Source: Bacteroidales bacterium KHT7
GTDB lineage: Bacteria > Bacteroidota > Bacteroidia > Bacteroidales > Bacteroidaceae
Direction of reading: 5' to 3'
Assembly (NCBI GenBank): GCA_900102385.1
Contig: FNBQ01000009.1
Coordinates: forward strand, 7,583 to 71,582
DNA length: 64,000 bases
Under the pieces are notes generated by a model. The model made no database searches and was not told the origin of the DNA. It worked only from the letters and a program-made list of their open reading frames with translations. The position numbers and the translations under genes were made by a program. Positions 23,130 to 59,888 of this stretch are shown one piece after another (position 1 is the stretch's first letter; each line of letters starts with the position of its first letter).

Positions 23130-23195
23130 TCTCGAACCTACCATCTTGCTACCTACTTACTATCTACTTGCTACCATCTTGCTATCTCGAACCTT
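23130..23195 (-). repeat. 11-bp period tandem array B (6 units)
   Basis: Six units in exact phase on the plus strand: TCTCGAACCTA, CCATCTTGCTA, CCTACTTACTA, TCTACTTGCTA, CCATCTTGCTA, TCTCGAACCTT. In the purine-rich orientation these read as TAGCAAGATGG and the like, the same words as in array A1 (138-155). It lies between the convergent CatA-like gene and dprA. Confidence 0.8.
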
Positions 23196-32580: not shown

Positions 32581-32745
32581 CTGTTTCTTCTCTGTTTCTT
32601 CTCCGTTTCTTCTCCGTACCTTCCCCGTTGCTACTCCGAAGCTACCCCGAAGCTACCCCGTTCCTACCACAAATCTACTCCTAACCCTCCGGCTTACTTT
32701 CCCGAACCTTGCCCGTACCCTGAAGCAACCTTGAATGTTGCTTCT
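32581..32745 (-). repeat. 11-bp period tandem array C (15 units)
   Basis: Fifteen units in unbroken phase on the plus strand: CTGTTTCTTCT twice, CCGTTTCTTCT, CCGTACCTTCC, CCGTTGCTACT, CCGAAGCTACC twice, CCGTTCCTACC and so on to ATGTTGCTTCT. The reverse complement shares CGGGGTAGC and AAGTAAGCCGG words with array D. It lies between the convergent YgjP-like gene and the M16 peptidase gene. An open frame across it (32554-32808) is an artefact of the low complexity. Confidence 0.85.
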
Positions 32746-51752: not shown

Positions 51753-53357
51753 ATGAATATTAAGAATTTTGGCAATTATCTGGGTCGCAACAGCAGAATT
51801 GTTCTTGCCGTTGCCATGTTTGTCGGCGTGTTCTTGTTTTGGTTTGTGCGCTATCCTTATGCGTTGTCGTATCAGGAGCAGAACCAACTTTTTTTGTATA
51901 CCGCCGATTATCTCGTGTCGGATGTGAGCAAGATGGGCGGGCTTGCTGCCTATTTGGGCGAATTCATCGTTCAGTTCTACTACGTTGAGTGGCTTGGAGC
52001 GGCTATGCTGGCACTCGTCTATGTGCTGCTTTACGTCCTGCTTTCACGCGTGATGAAACCGTCGTTCGCTCTTGTTCCGTGCGTGCTGATGCTTTGGCAT
52101 TATGGCGACGAGAACGTCCTTCTTGCCTATATGATGGCGGCGATTCTTTCGCTTGCAGCATATCTCGCCATGAAAAAAATGCCGGTTTATTCGGATGTAG
52201 TCGTTGTTCCGGCGTTGTTCTGGCTTGCCGGACCGATGGCTTGGCTTTACGTCGTGCTTCGGTCAATCCGGCAGAAACTGTACTTCGGACTGGCTCTTGC
52301 GGCATATTCCGCAATCGTGGCGGCGGTACTTGCCTTTGTCGTTCTGCTACAATATCCCGTTCAGTCGGCTTTCTTCGGAATTGGCTATCATGCCGTGCCG
52401 ATGACATATCCTGCGCTACAGTTTGTAATTCCTCTGGCGGTCGTTCTGCTTTCCCTTGCATCAGAAAAGTTGCAGAATGTAAGATATCTGGACTGTGCGG
52501 CACTTCTTTCGGCTGTTGTCCTATCTTTTTATGCCGATAAAATCGGCTTCGACAAGGAGAAATACGAGGTTCTGAAACTCGACTATCTGGTAAGAAACGA
52601 GCGATGGAACGACATAATTTCGCTTTCAGAGAACCATCAGATGCAGAACAACTACGGCTCGGTGTGCGTAAATCTGGCACTTGCCAAGACAGGGCAGTTG
52701 CCTTACCGCATGTTCACGTTCTACCAGAGCGGTCCTGATGCCTTGGCTATGGGCTTTGAGCGCGACAATCTGACGTGCATCCCTACAATGGAGACGTTCT
52801 ATCATCTTGGAATGGTAAACGAGTGTATGCGATATGCCTTCGACATTCAGGAAAGCATCTTGACGGGCAAGAGCAGCGGACGAATGACCAAGCGTATTGC
52901 CGAGTGTTGCCTTGCCAACGGCTGGAACGATGTGGCGCAGAAGCATCTTGGTATGCTCAGACATTCGCTTTTCTATCGCTCGTGGGCAGAGAAGGCCGCC
53001 GTGAGCCCTCATCTTAAAGCGTTCAGATACAAGGACGATTTTCTGTATAACTACAACGAGATTGACAAGATGTTCGGAATGTTGTTCCAAAGCAATCCGA
53101 AGAACAAGATGGCGCTCGAATACTTCTTGGGTCAGACGCTCCTTAACTGCGATGCGCAAGGATTCATGCAGTATCTGGGCTGGGCTGGTCAGTACGGCGG
53201 CTATGGAGAAATGCCCGAGGGTTATGCCGATGCCGTGCGTTGTATTCAGCAGAGAGGAAACGTAAGGTACTCAAACTATGCCGACTATCTGCACTCGTTC
53301 ATGCAGAGGGCTCAGGAGATGGGCGTAAATATTAACGAAAACAATTCAGTACACTAA
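51753..53357 (+). CDS. DUF6057-family polytopic membrane protein
   Basis: A 534-residue protein. The N-terminal half has about eight to nine hydrophobic segments (from 'IVLAVAMFVGVFLFWFV' near residue 18 to about residue 260), and the C-terminal half (about 275-534) is soluble and helical, with short tetratricopeptide-like stretches ('NDIISLSENHQMQNNYGSV', 'CLANGWNDVAQKHLGM'). The family is Bacteroidetes-specific with unknown function. It is 5 bp upstream of the CxxCH/PD40 lipoprotein gene; this conserved-looking pairing suggests an envelope complex. Confidence 0.82.
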   Translation: MNIKNFGNYLGRNSRIVLAVAMFVGVFLFWFVRYPYALSYQEQNQLFLYTADYLVSDVSKMGGLAAYLGEFIVQFYYVEWLGAAMLALVYVLLYVLLSRVMKPSFALVPCVLMLWHYGDENVLLAYMMAAILSLAAYLAMKKMPVYSDVVVVPALFWLAGPMAWLYVVLRSIRQKLYFGLALAAYSAIVAAVLAFVVLLQYPVQSAFFGIGYHAVPMTYPALQFVIPLAVVLLSLASEKLQNVRYLDCAALLSAVVLSFYADKIGFDKEKYEVLKLDYLVRNERWNDIISLSENHQMQNNYGSVCVNLALAKTGQLPYRMFTFYQSGPDALAMGFERDNLTCIPTMETFYHLGMVNECMRYAFDIQESILTGKSSGRMTKRIAECCLANGWNDVAQKHLGMLRHSLFYRSWAEKAAVSPHLKAFRYKDDFLYNYNEIDKMFGMLFQSNPKNKMALEYFLGQTLLNCDAQGFMQYLGWAGQYGGYGEMPEGYADAVRCIQQRGNVRYSNYADYLHSFMQRAQEMGVNINENNSVH

Positions 53358-53362
53358 GAAAA

Positions 53363-54829
53363 ATGAAGAAGATATATCTACTCGCCATCGTAGCCCTGCT
53401 TTCATCGTGCATGAAGCAGGTCGAGAATCCGACGGAGAGCGGCACGCAGCCCGAGATTTTTCCCGATTATGTGGGCGTAACCATTCCTGCAGGCATCGCG
53501 CCGATGGATTTCGGAATGAAGGACGATGCTTTTACGCTCGTTGATGTGGTAGCCACCGGAAGCAAGGGAGGAGAACTGCACGTTCAGGGCGAATATGCCG
53601 ATTTTGACGTGGAAGATTGGCACGACCTTACCGAGCGTAACATAGGCGGACAGATTTCGTTCGTGGTGTCGGCTCTGAAGAATGGCAGATGGACGCGCTA
53701 CAAGAGCTTCGTGATGAACGTGAGCCGCCATCGTCTCGACGACTACGGAATAACATACCGCCGTATTGCTCCGGGCTACGAGTGCGGCGGCGACATAGGC
53801 ATCTACCAGCGCGACATCCACACATTCGACGAGGAGGCTATGTTTACCGTCGATGCCGTTCCGGGGCAATGTATGAACTGCCATACAGCCAACCGCGCAA
53901 GTGCCGACGAGTTTCTGTTGCACGTCCGCGGCGAGAAGAGCGGAACGATGCTTCAGCAGAACGGCAAACAGACGTGGCTTAACACCAAGACCGACAGCAC
54001 CAAGGCAAACATGAGTTACAGCTATTGGCATCCGTCGGGCAACTATATCGTTTCGTCGGTAAACACTATATTTCAGGCATTCTTCGTCGGCAACAAACGT
54101 CGGATAGAGGTCTACGACCTTATAAGCGACGTTCTGGTTTACGATGTAAAGAAGAATCAACTCTTGCTCGACAATCGTCTGCAAACGCCCGATTTCGAGT
54201 CGTATCCTTCATTCTCTGCCGATGGAACCGCCATTTTCTTCAGCACGTCAAAACTATGCAACGTGCCTGTCGATTACGAGAAGATGAAATACAGTCTTTG
54301 CAAAATAGACTTCGACCCGGCTAACGGAACGTTTGGCGAGAGGGTAGACACGCTCCTCAACGCCGAGGCTCTCGACAAGAGTTTCACCTTCGCCCGTCCG
54401 TCGTTCGATGGCAAGTGGCTGATGTATAATGCCATGGACTGCGGAAACTTTCCGGTAAACCACAAGGAGTCCGATTTGTGGATAATGGACTTGCGCAACG
54501 GCAACACTCGCGCCTTGAAAGAGGTTAATAGCGATGATGCCGAGAGTTTTCACAACTGGAGCAGTCAGAGCCATTGGTTTGTGTTCTCAAGCCGTAGGAT
54601 AGACGGAATGTACACCAACGCTTATTTCGCATGCATTGGCGACGACGGAAAGGCTACAAAGCCGTTCCTGCTGCCGCAACGCAACCCTAAGAAGCATTAT
54701 CGCGAGTCGCTCGACTCGTACAACTGTCCCGAGTTTACAAAGACAAAGGTCTGTTTCGATGCCCGACAAGCCGGAAGCGAATGTCTTGGCGGCAATAGAA
54801 AGCAGGTTGATTTAGCAATTCACAATTGA
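53363..54829 (+). CDS. Lipoprotein with CxxCH heme motif and PD40/TolB-like propeller
   Basis: The 488 residues start with a lipobox signal ('LLAIVALLSSCMKQ', Cys near residue 16). One c-type heme motif CxxCH is present as 'GQCMNCHTANRAS' (about 170-182). After it come WD40-like/PD40 blades ('SYSYWHPSGNYIVSSV', 'SYPSFSADGTAIFFST', 'ARPSFDGKWLMYNA', 'SQSHWFVFSSRRIDG'). A propeller plus a possible heme suggests an envelope redox or sensing role, but no c-type maturation gene is visible here. The last codons run into the TTGACAATT-type repeat, which supplies the stop. Confidence 0.75.
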   Translation: MKKIYLLAIVALLSSCMKQVENPTESGTQPEIFPDYVGVTIPAGIAPMDFGMKDDAFTLVDVVATGSKGGELHVQGEYADFDVEDWHDLTERNIGGQISFVVSALKNGRWTRYKSFVMNVSRHRLDDYGITYRRIAPGYECGGDIGIYQRDIHTFDEEAMFTVDAVPGQCMNCHTANRASADEFLLHVRGEKSGTMLQQNGKQTWLNTKTDSTKANMSYSYWHPSGNYIVSSVNTIFQAFFVGNKRRIEVYDLISDVLVYDVKKNQLLLDNRLQTPDFESYPSFSADGTAIFFSTSKLCNVPVDYEKMKYSLCKIDFDPANGTFGERVDTLLNAEALDKSFTFARPSFDGKWLMYNAMDCGNFPVNHKESDLWIMDLRNGNTRALKEVNSDDAESFHNWSSQSHWFVFSSRRIDGMYTNAYFACIGDDGKATKPFLLPQRNPKKHYRESLDSYNCPEFTKTKVCFDARQAGSECLGGNRKQVDLAIHN

Positions 54830-54898
54830 CAGTTGAAAATTCTTTTGAATTGACAGTTGACAATTTTATTTAATTGAAATTTGGAGCTTGAAAGTTGA
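54818..54898 (+). repeat. TTGACAATT-type repeat overlapping a stop codon
   Basis: Variants of AATTGACAGTTGA repeat here, beginning within the last codons of the PD40 lipoprotein gene (stop TGA at 54827-54829 is part of the repeat). The related repeat at 59826-59888 begins at the stop codon of the TonB receptor gene. Confidence 0.6.
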
Positions 54899-54906
54899 TT
54901 ATTCGT

Positions 54907-55246
54907 ATCAAGGTAGATTTTACATAGAGGCAAGCTATATTGAAGTAAGCCGACGGTAAGCCGAAAGTAAGGGGATGCCAAGGGAGTACCAAGCCGAAAG
55001 GTATGGAGTAGTTACGTTCAAGGTACGTTCAAGATACGGAGAAGTAAGCCGGAAGATACGGGGTAGCTACGGGGTAGGAACGGAGTAGCTACGGGGAAGG
55101 TACGTTTAAGATACGTTCAGGGTTCGTTCAAGTTACGTTCAAGATACGTTCAAGCAAGCCGGAAGTTACGTTCAGGGTACGGAGAAGGTTCGGGCAAGTA
55201 AGCCGGAAGGTTCGGACAAGATACGAAGAAGATATAAGGTGAGAAG
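54907..55246 (+). repeat. 11-bp period tandem array D (about 31 units)
   Basis: From 54928 to 55246, 29 consecutive 11-mers follow without any insertion or deletion (one 10-base slip lies before, at 54918-54927). Typical units: GTTCAAGATAC, GTTCAAGGTAC, GGGGTAGCTAC, GGAGTAGCTAC, CCGGAAGTTAC, GGAGAAGTAAG. Column 7 is almost always G and column 10 usually A. Units diverge strongly in sequence while the phase is preserved. No ORF. This is the longest array of the family. Confidence 0.9.
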
Positions 55247-55701: not shown

Positions 55702-55852
55702 CCCAAATCGGTCATTAGAAATTTTGCCTTACATAATGTTCAGATAAGTATTCGGAGCCTATGAAAATATAAGCGAAAAGTGCTAATGATTGACTCTGAA
55801 TATTAAACCAACTTACATTTTGCTACTTATTTTTTCTAATGACCGTTTTGGG
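55702..55852. mobile_element. MITE-like or IS-relic inverted repeat element
   Basis: Imperfect terminal repeats: CCCAAATCGGTCATTAGAAA (55702-55721) and, inverted, TTTCTAATGACCGTTTTGGG (55833-55852), 18 of 20 matching. They enclose 111 bp with no ORF. A minus-strand TACCTTTG box lies just to the right (55892-55899) and would transcribe through the element, as in the leaders of Bacteroidetes transposase genes. No transposase is present. Confidence 0.5.
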
Positions 55853-59809: not shown

Positions 59810-59825
59810 TTCCTCGAAAGAAAAT

Positions 59826-59888
59826 TGTCAATTGTCCATTGTCAATTCTGAATTTTCAACTTTCAAGTTTAAATTTTCAATTTACAAG
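59826..59888 (-). repeat. TTGACAATT-type repeat at the TonB receptor stop codon
   Basis: On the minus strand the repeat begins right at the receptor's TAA (59882-59884) and reads as AATTGAAAATT, CTTGAAAGTTGAAAATTC, AATTGACAATGG, ACAATTGACAATT. The same family lies at 54818-54898. Confidence 0.6.

Follow-up and report, generated by a model that had tools for sequence, protein, structure and literature searches.

BrickBuilt elements of Porphyromonas gingivalis, a member of the order Bacteroidales, are dispersed intergenic sequences in which imperfect tandem direct repeats of variable unit number are combined with a leader and a tail; their unit measures 23 nt, they occur in 19 copies per genome, and ISPg1-like terminal inverted repeats have been reported for them, as have repeats of 22, 23 and 41 nt for the species (PMC4596501). 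REPs are palindromes of 20-40 bp with a GTAG or CGTC tag, which are often accompanied by RAYT transposases (PMC3733652). Plasmid centromere iterons of the ParR/parC type are recognised by an adaptor of the ribbon-helix-helix class. In plasmid centromeres, the repeats serve as binding sites, those of parC being 10 bp long and bound by ParR and those of pSM19035 being heptads bound by omega (PMC5016525).

The window analysed here, a stretch of 64,000 nucleotides, covers positions 7583-71582 of contig C44 of a 3.79-Mb rumen Bacteroidaceae genome (G000), which was set against a separately assembled genome (G001), the only other one of the same genus that was compared. The units of a minisatellite usually stay constant in length as well as in sequence; here, at dozens of loci in two species, the length is kept and the sequence is let go. 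An initial annotation had described five intergenic arrays of differing 11-mers in the window and had taken their constant spacing to suggest selection or a mechanism acting on the period.

Arrays of the window and their unit

The features of the window are as follows.
69 to 90, + strand: leader L1 (TTTTGGTAAATACAAAATAGTG) of array A1, an exact copy with 0 expected by chance
91 to 222, + strand: array A1, 12 units of 11 bp; lag-11 identity 0.69 against a shuffle maximum of 0.49, and unit layout
372 to 393, + strand: leader L1 of array A2, an exact copy
394 to 480, + strand: array A2, about 8 units; lag-11 identity 0.64, and a tail motif common to other arrays
870 to 906, - strand: short run of CCGAAGGAATC-like 11-bp units; lag-11 score 16.5 against a shuffle maximum of 14.2
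23130 to 23195, - strand: array B, about 6 units, between convergent genes; lag-11 identity 0.58, and orthologous alignment
32581 to 32745, - strand: array C, 15 units, between convergent genes; lag-11 identity 0.64, and alignment with G001
54816 to 54877, + strand: AT-rich flank with a 7-bp period ahead of array D; found by Tandem Repeats Finder and like the flanks at other elements
54907 to 54944, + strand: third leader type with weak first units (ATCAAGGTAGATTTTACATAGAGGCAAGC...), common to locus L062 and found in a variant form at other elements
54945 to 55246, + strand: array D, core of a 29-unit run, downstream of a + strand gene; lag-11 score 72

All five arrays are real, each exceeding 2,000 dinucleotide shuffles of its own sequence: lag-11 identities of 0.69 (A1), 0.64 (A2, 393-480), 0.58 (B), 0.64 (C) and 0.57 (D, 54928-55246) stand against best shuffled values of 0.49, 0.51, 0.49, 0.44 and 0.36, respectively, and the values at lags 8-10 and 12-14 are far below that at lag 11 throughout. 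The excess over shuffled sequence is also seen in the lag-11 scores (A1 54, A2 28, B 19, C 55, D 72), the maximum over 40 shuffles of the whole window being 14.2. Tandem Repeats Finder likewise assigns period 11 to each of the five arrays, although it splits them into fragments owing to the differences between units. The words that had been noticed to recur between arrays are present. B and C lie between convergent genes and D downstream of a + strand gene. The purine-rich strand is the + strand in A1, A2 and D and the - strand in B and C. At the edges of B and D the units are weak, and the last units of A2 merge into a tail motif (GCCAGATTAGGTGATGGGTAG), which also follows some other arrays. 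The run at 870-906 possibly belongs to the same family, its score lying just over the shuffle maximum, and similar short runs occur elsewhere. A further array (TCGTAGGAACG seven times) lies just left of window position 1 and is interrupted by an assembly gap (N). As a separate observation, an Imm11-like immunity gene (999-1556, - strand) adjoins A1 and A2, and several related Imm11-like copies are present in the counterpart of this region in G001 (C1, approximately 53000-54700).

Written on the purine strand, the unit follows the profile NNV-WRG-N-WW-SR, which summarises 1,571 units of 464 kinds. Positions 4, 8 and 9 are A or T, position 5 is mostly A and position 6 mostly G, and positions 1-3 and 7 are open. 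When a profile trained on one species was run over the other, unit matches in intergenic DNA were spaced by 11 bp 771 times, by 10 bp only twice and by 12 bp four times, and spacings of 22 and 33 bp were found 671 and 588 times; within genes, the same scan gave no peak at 11 or 22. Minor spacing peaks at 4 and 7 bp arise because the unit is self-similar at a shift of 4. Pairs of TCCAAGGTAC in the whole genome are likewise spaced by 11 or 22 bp, apart from pairs that span N runs. The initial description of arrays that never lose phase holds almost without exception; however, a single 4-bp slip occurs in one array (L062:16611-16815), so the phase lock is very strong, yet not absolute.

Distribution and anatomy in the two genomes

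The five loci noted at the outset were too few, as the family extends through the whole genome. In a sample of 1.82 Mb from G000 and G001, 93 period-11 stretches with a total of 13.1 kb reached a lag score of at least 20, and 93 arrays fit the unit profile; these densities are approximate, because sampling was partly aimed at pattern matches. At the same threshold, periods 8, 10, 13, 16 and 17 gave zero arrays in the sample, and period 7 formed the second class after 11. None of the 93 arrays lies inside a called gene, the calls being made with a simple hexamer model built for this analysis. A coding repeat was rejected on this count and because a reading frame would not survive indels of 11 and 22 bp. 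The gaps between convergent genes are enriched in arrays (18 of 57 as opposed to 137 of 932; odds ratio 2.9, p = 7e-4), and some arrays sit between divergent genes. With respect to co-directional genes, the purine strand is the sense strand in 23 cases and the antisense strand in 14, and array polarity showed no association with the leading strand or GC skew (p = 0.84).

Judged from pattern matches in the genome collection, the family appears to be specific to this genus and to run through both genomes. A two-unit pattern gave 125 forward and 124 reverse matches in G000 and 140 and 112 in G001, and only chance-level matches in 99 other genomes of the order. An exact three-unit pattern was found in the collection only in a MAG from water-buffalo rumen (RGIG8161, JAFZWM01, "Bacteroidaceae bacterium") and in one contig of a rumen Ruminococcus MAG (L037, CACWTQ010000164.1). 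This contig is probably mis-binned, because 606 bp near its array are 98% identical to G000; similarly, the last 116 bases of an IMG/VR contig (L053) consist of the hairpin leader and an array, and the arrays in these "viral" and "Ruminococcus" contigs probably reflect mis-assembly or mis-binning at repeats. No match was found in phage and plasmid collections, and a phage or plasmid origin was rejected, as was a CRISPR array, since the units are contiguous, degenerate and 11 bp long without spacers, as opposed to constant repeats with unique spacers.

The elements are modular, comprising a leader, 11-bp units, sometimes a tail, and, around many of them, AT-rich flanks with a 7-bp period. Leader L1 is present in 63 copies in G000 and 27 in G001, with at most one copy in each of the 99 other genomes, and in 31 of 35 sampled copies it directly precedes an array on the same strand. 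The hairpin leader (GAACAATTTCGTCAGAAATTGTTC) and the third leader type precede other arrays. N runs and contig ends are frequent in homogeneous arrays (left of the window in C44; C29, C39 and C41 of G000; ends of several contigs of both genomes), and because they fall within the arrays, the true lengths there are probably greater than assembled. It is conceivable on this ground that the arrays are products of sequencing or assembly, with lengths under-estimated at such places, but the probability of this is practically negligible: orthologous arrays carrying species-specific substitutions occur in two separately assembled genomes, which refutes an artefact of one assembly.

Other repeats were seen alongside. 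A repeat of approximately 150 bp with inverted ends (CCCAAATCGGTCATTAGAAA ... TTTCTAATGACCGTTTTGGG) lies at window positions 55703-55851 and at loci of contig C23 of G000; it resembles a classical MITE, and a copy in G000 (L067) is missing at the orthologous site in G001 (L040). An AT-rich family with a 7-bp period (AATTCAC and TTGAAAA types) occurs at 8-48, 54816-54877 and 59823-59887 of the window and at many other loci, with some species differences being multiples of 7. A repeat around GACGCTGAAAGCGTC, accompanied by further GC-rich inverted repeats and with 12 copies of its core in the sample and 0 in genes, is found in intergenic DNA (L061:6430-7702, L065:4634-6691).

Change between the species and its possible causes

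The gene flanks of the two species are approximately 92% identical. In the aligned orthologous arrays, 26 substitutions in 968 bases and 13 gaps were counted, compared with 165 substitutions in 3,565 bases and 44 gaps in the aligned flanks; on these substitution counts, the letters of the arrays are no more mutable than their surroundings. The gaps differ in kind. Among the 13 array gaps, eleven have a length divisible by 11, and the last two, of 10 and 1 bases in one array, sum to 11, whereas only one of the 44 flank gaps is a multiple of 11 and most are of 1-5 bases. Array lengths differ between the genomes by whole units of 11 or 22 bp. Of the two proposals of the initial annotation, a mechanism acting on the period receives direct support from these gaps; selection does not follow from them, since whole-unit slippage also keeps the period.

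Whole loci turn over quickly, a point against an essential role. Array B is kept in G001 with 1 base different, array C is missing there together with its intergenic stretch, and the site of array D carries another type of array; conversely, a G001 contig (C18) has two arrays at a place where the corresponding G000 site is without any. In one orthologous array, the leader and first units are retained and the continuation is different. A run of approximately 13 units is common to array D and L062:16254-16464, and a second long run to L061 and L063; arrays have therefore been copied between loci.

The letters of the unit also carry some pattern. Single differences between units whose two neighbours are identical are unevenly spread over the positions (49 events, p = 2e-4), position 7 being the commonest. 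Among rare one-step variants, 13 of 20 at positions 4, 8 and 9 are exchanges between A and T, compared with 0 of 48 at positions 1-3 and 7, a contrast that is partly due to base composition; overall, the rare variants are only mildly uneven (p = 0.06), and units passing from one array to another could give the appearance of constraint. These data suggest a loose motif to which the unit is kept, with A and T swapping at positions 4, 8 and 9 and G or C seldom appearing there. Such interchange would be easier to reconcile with a readout of double-stranded DNA, through the minor groove or shape, than with an RNA motif.

On balance, we consider it probable that the arrays are copies of a genus-specific dispersed intergenic element, composed of leader, 11-bp units and sometimes a tail, in which change by whole units locks the period and a weak constraint may act on the motif. 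The arrays grow and shrink by whole units, for which replication slippage or unequal recombination is the most likely process; since change comes in whole units, the period stays constant even as the letters drift. Paralogous copies and presence/absence differences show that leader-array modules are copied between loci and lost or exchanged at a site. The simplest source of the constraint would be a putative DNA-binding protein with one low-specificity site per helical turn. Against the constraint, the weak part of this reading, stand the p = 0.06 for unevenness, the possible mimicry by unit exchange and the contribution of composition; against the reading as a whole, it can be held that no transposase, recombinase or binding protein linked to the element was found and that turnover is fast.

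Much of the same evidence would also be produced by a purely neutral minisatellite, in which slippage alone fixes the period, the motif reflects common ancestry, and neither function nor selection bears on the unit. Whole-unit indels would suffice to preserve the period, rapid turnover would be expected, and the rare variants are nearly uniform over positions. However, the arrays contain fewer short phase-breaking indels than the flank rate would lead one to expect (about 12 gaps, from flanks richer in homopolymers), and positions restricted to A and T (4, 8 and 9) would be hard to reach by drift, so we regard this explanation as a serious one that nevertheless falls short of being probable. 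That the array is the passenger of a MITE, a non-autonomous transposable element moved in trans by a transposase recognising leader and tail, appears unlikely. Leader and tail motifs are present, the element is present or absent at orthologous sites, and BrickBuilt provides a precedent (PMC4596501), but the two presence/absence sites that were inspected showed no constant ends, terminal inverted repeats or target duplication, arrays of one kind are preceded by three different leaders, and a REP-type tyrosine transposase occurs in G000 only. With two PF01797 matches in G000 and zero in G001 despite its many arrays, a REP with RAYT transposase is not supported.

The excess of arrays between convergent genes could point to a transcription terminator or another element acting at the RNA level, for example through Rho loading on the pyrimidine-rich strand with its conserved C every 11 nt, a spacing within the range of Rho-binding sites. 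This is highly improbable, given that there is no orientation preference with respect to co-directional genes (23 sense, 14 antisense), that arrays are also present between divergent genes and that interchange of A and T would be odd in an RNA motif. The folding of both strands is ordinary (z -0.9 and -1.2) and no Rfam match was found, so that a structured RNA is not supported either. Intrinsic curvature, the DNA property proposed initially for examination, is not supported as the main feature: in a prediction with wedge values, the end-to-end ratio of the arrays was 0.947 compared with 0.973 for phase-jittered copies, so that they are barely more curved, and that of a phased A-tract control was 0.35.

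Periods in other genera and relation to known elements

The closeness of the period to one helical turn, remarked on in the initial annotation, gained unexpected support from lightly sampled relatives, as unrelated repeats at 22, 22/11 and 21 bp were found in three other genera. Among 20 relatives scanned, several carry degenerate repeats with a 22-bp period. With more sequence, the lag score showed period 22 alone in G012, 11/22/33/44 in G011, 21/22/42-44 in G003 and little in G024. In a whole-genome search for motif pairs that allowed a free gap of 0-30 bases, the spacing was exactly 22 bp in 34 of 37 pairs in G012, with variable letters between, 22 bp in 15 of 15 in G011, and 21 bp in 21 of 22 in G003, with nearly constant letters between; the G012 pair is essentially absent from 60 other genomes. 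Of 56 arrays in noncoding sequence from the 20 relatives, 27 show a period of 11, 22, 33 or 44, and shuffled sequence yields about one array altogether, although these counts are biased because four genera were sampled more after the first signs. In G011 and G012, inspection by eye made dyad axes at 11-bp intervals within the 22-bp repeats look likely, but computation did not confirm them.

These periods in unrelated sequences would be expected if a conserved DNA-architectural system of the Bacteroidaceae read spacing instead of sequence, at one or two turns and with a motif that differs by genus, and selected for helical phasing. We nevertheless hold such selection to be distinctly unlikely, as few genera were sampled, some of them more heavily owing to first results, the period is 21 in one genus and 11 or 22 in others, the further genus of G024 did not bear the rule out, no candidate protein emerged, and the arrays turn over fast. 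A family-wide rule of helical periods is thus possible, a live hypothesis and not a result. If the period itself were selected, the arrays would allow DNA architecture to be read from the intergenic sequence of bacteria and would point to a nucleoid-organising factor. If slippage alone is responsible, they are still an abundant new repeat family, which breaks short-read assemblies and would be suited to strain typing.

No 11-bp family of this sort was found in the open-licence literature. However, the initial statement that no described element has these properties does not stand, since intergenic elements with a leader and an imperfect minisatellite were already known in BrickBuilt (PMC4596501). 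The arrays resemble REP/BIME sequences in being high-copy, intergenic and mosaic and in lying between convergent genes (PMC3733652), but the 11-bp unit is not palindromic, since its profile correlates with its own reverse complement at no more than 0.24 whatever the register, and arrays occur in G001, where no RAYT was detected. With plasmid centromeres they share tandem direct repeats of about one helical turn, degenerate units and, in principle, the possibility of cooperative binding (PMC5016525); centromeres, however, comprise one or few sites beside a par operon, whereas here dozens of chromosomal sites lie beside unrelated genes and turn over fast. The tandem repeat regions of Borgs are also many and fast-evolving within one lineage, but they are reported to arise independently and to lie also within genes (PMC9879509), in contrast to the one dominant, degenerate and exclusively intergenic unit length seen here. 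The family is most like BrickBuilt of Porphyromonas gingivalis, with which it shares the intergenic and dispersed position, imperfect direct repeats, leader and tail, variable unit number and the order Bacteroidales. The sequence relation between the two was compared by unit length alone, which is 23 nt in BrickBuilt and 11 bp here; the 19 copies per genome of the former are opposed to at least 60 leader-bearing elements, and terminal inverted repeats like those of ISPg1 were not found at the two presence/absence sites (PMC4596501). Relative to BrickBuilt-like elements, three things are new: a unit of 11 bp, a greater number of copies and a phase lock of this strength.
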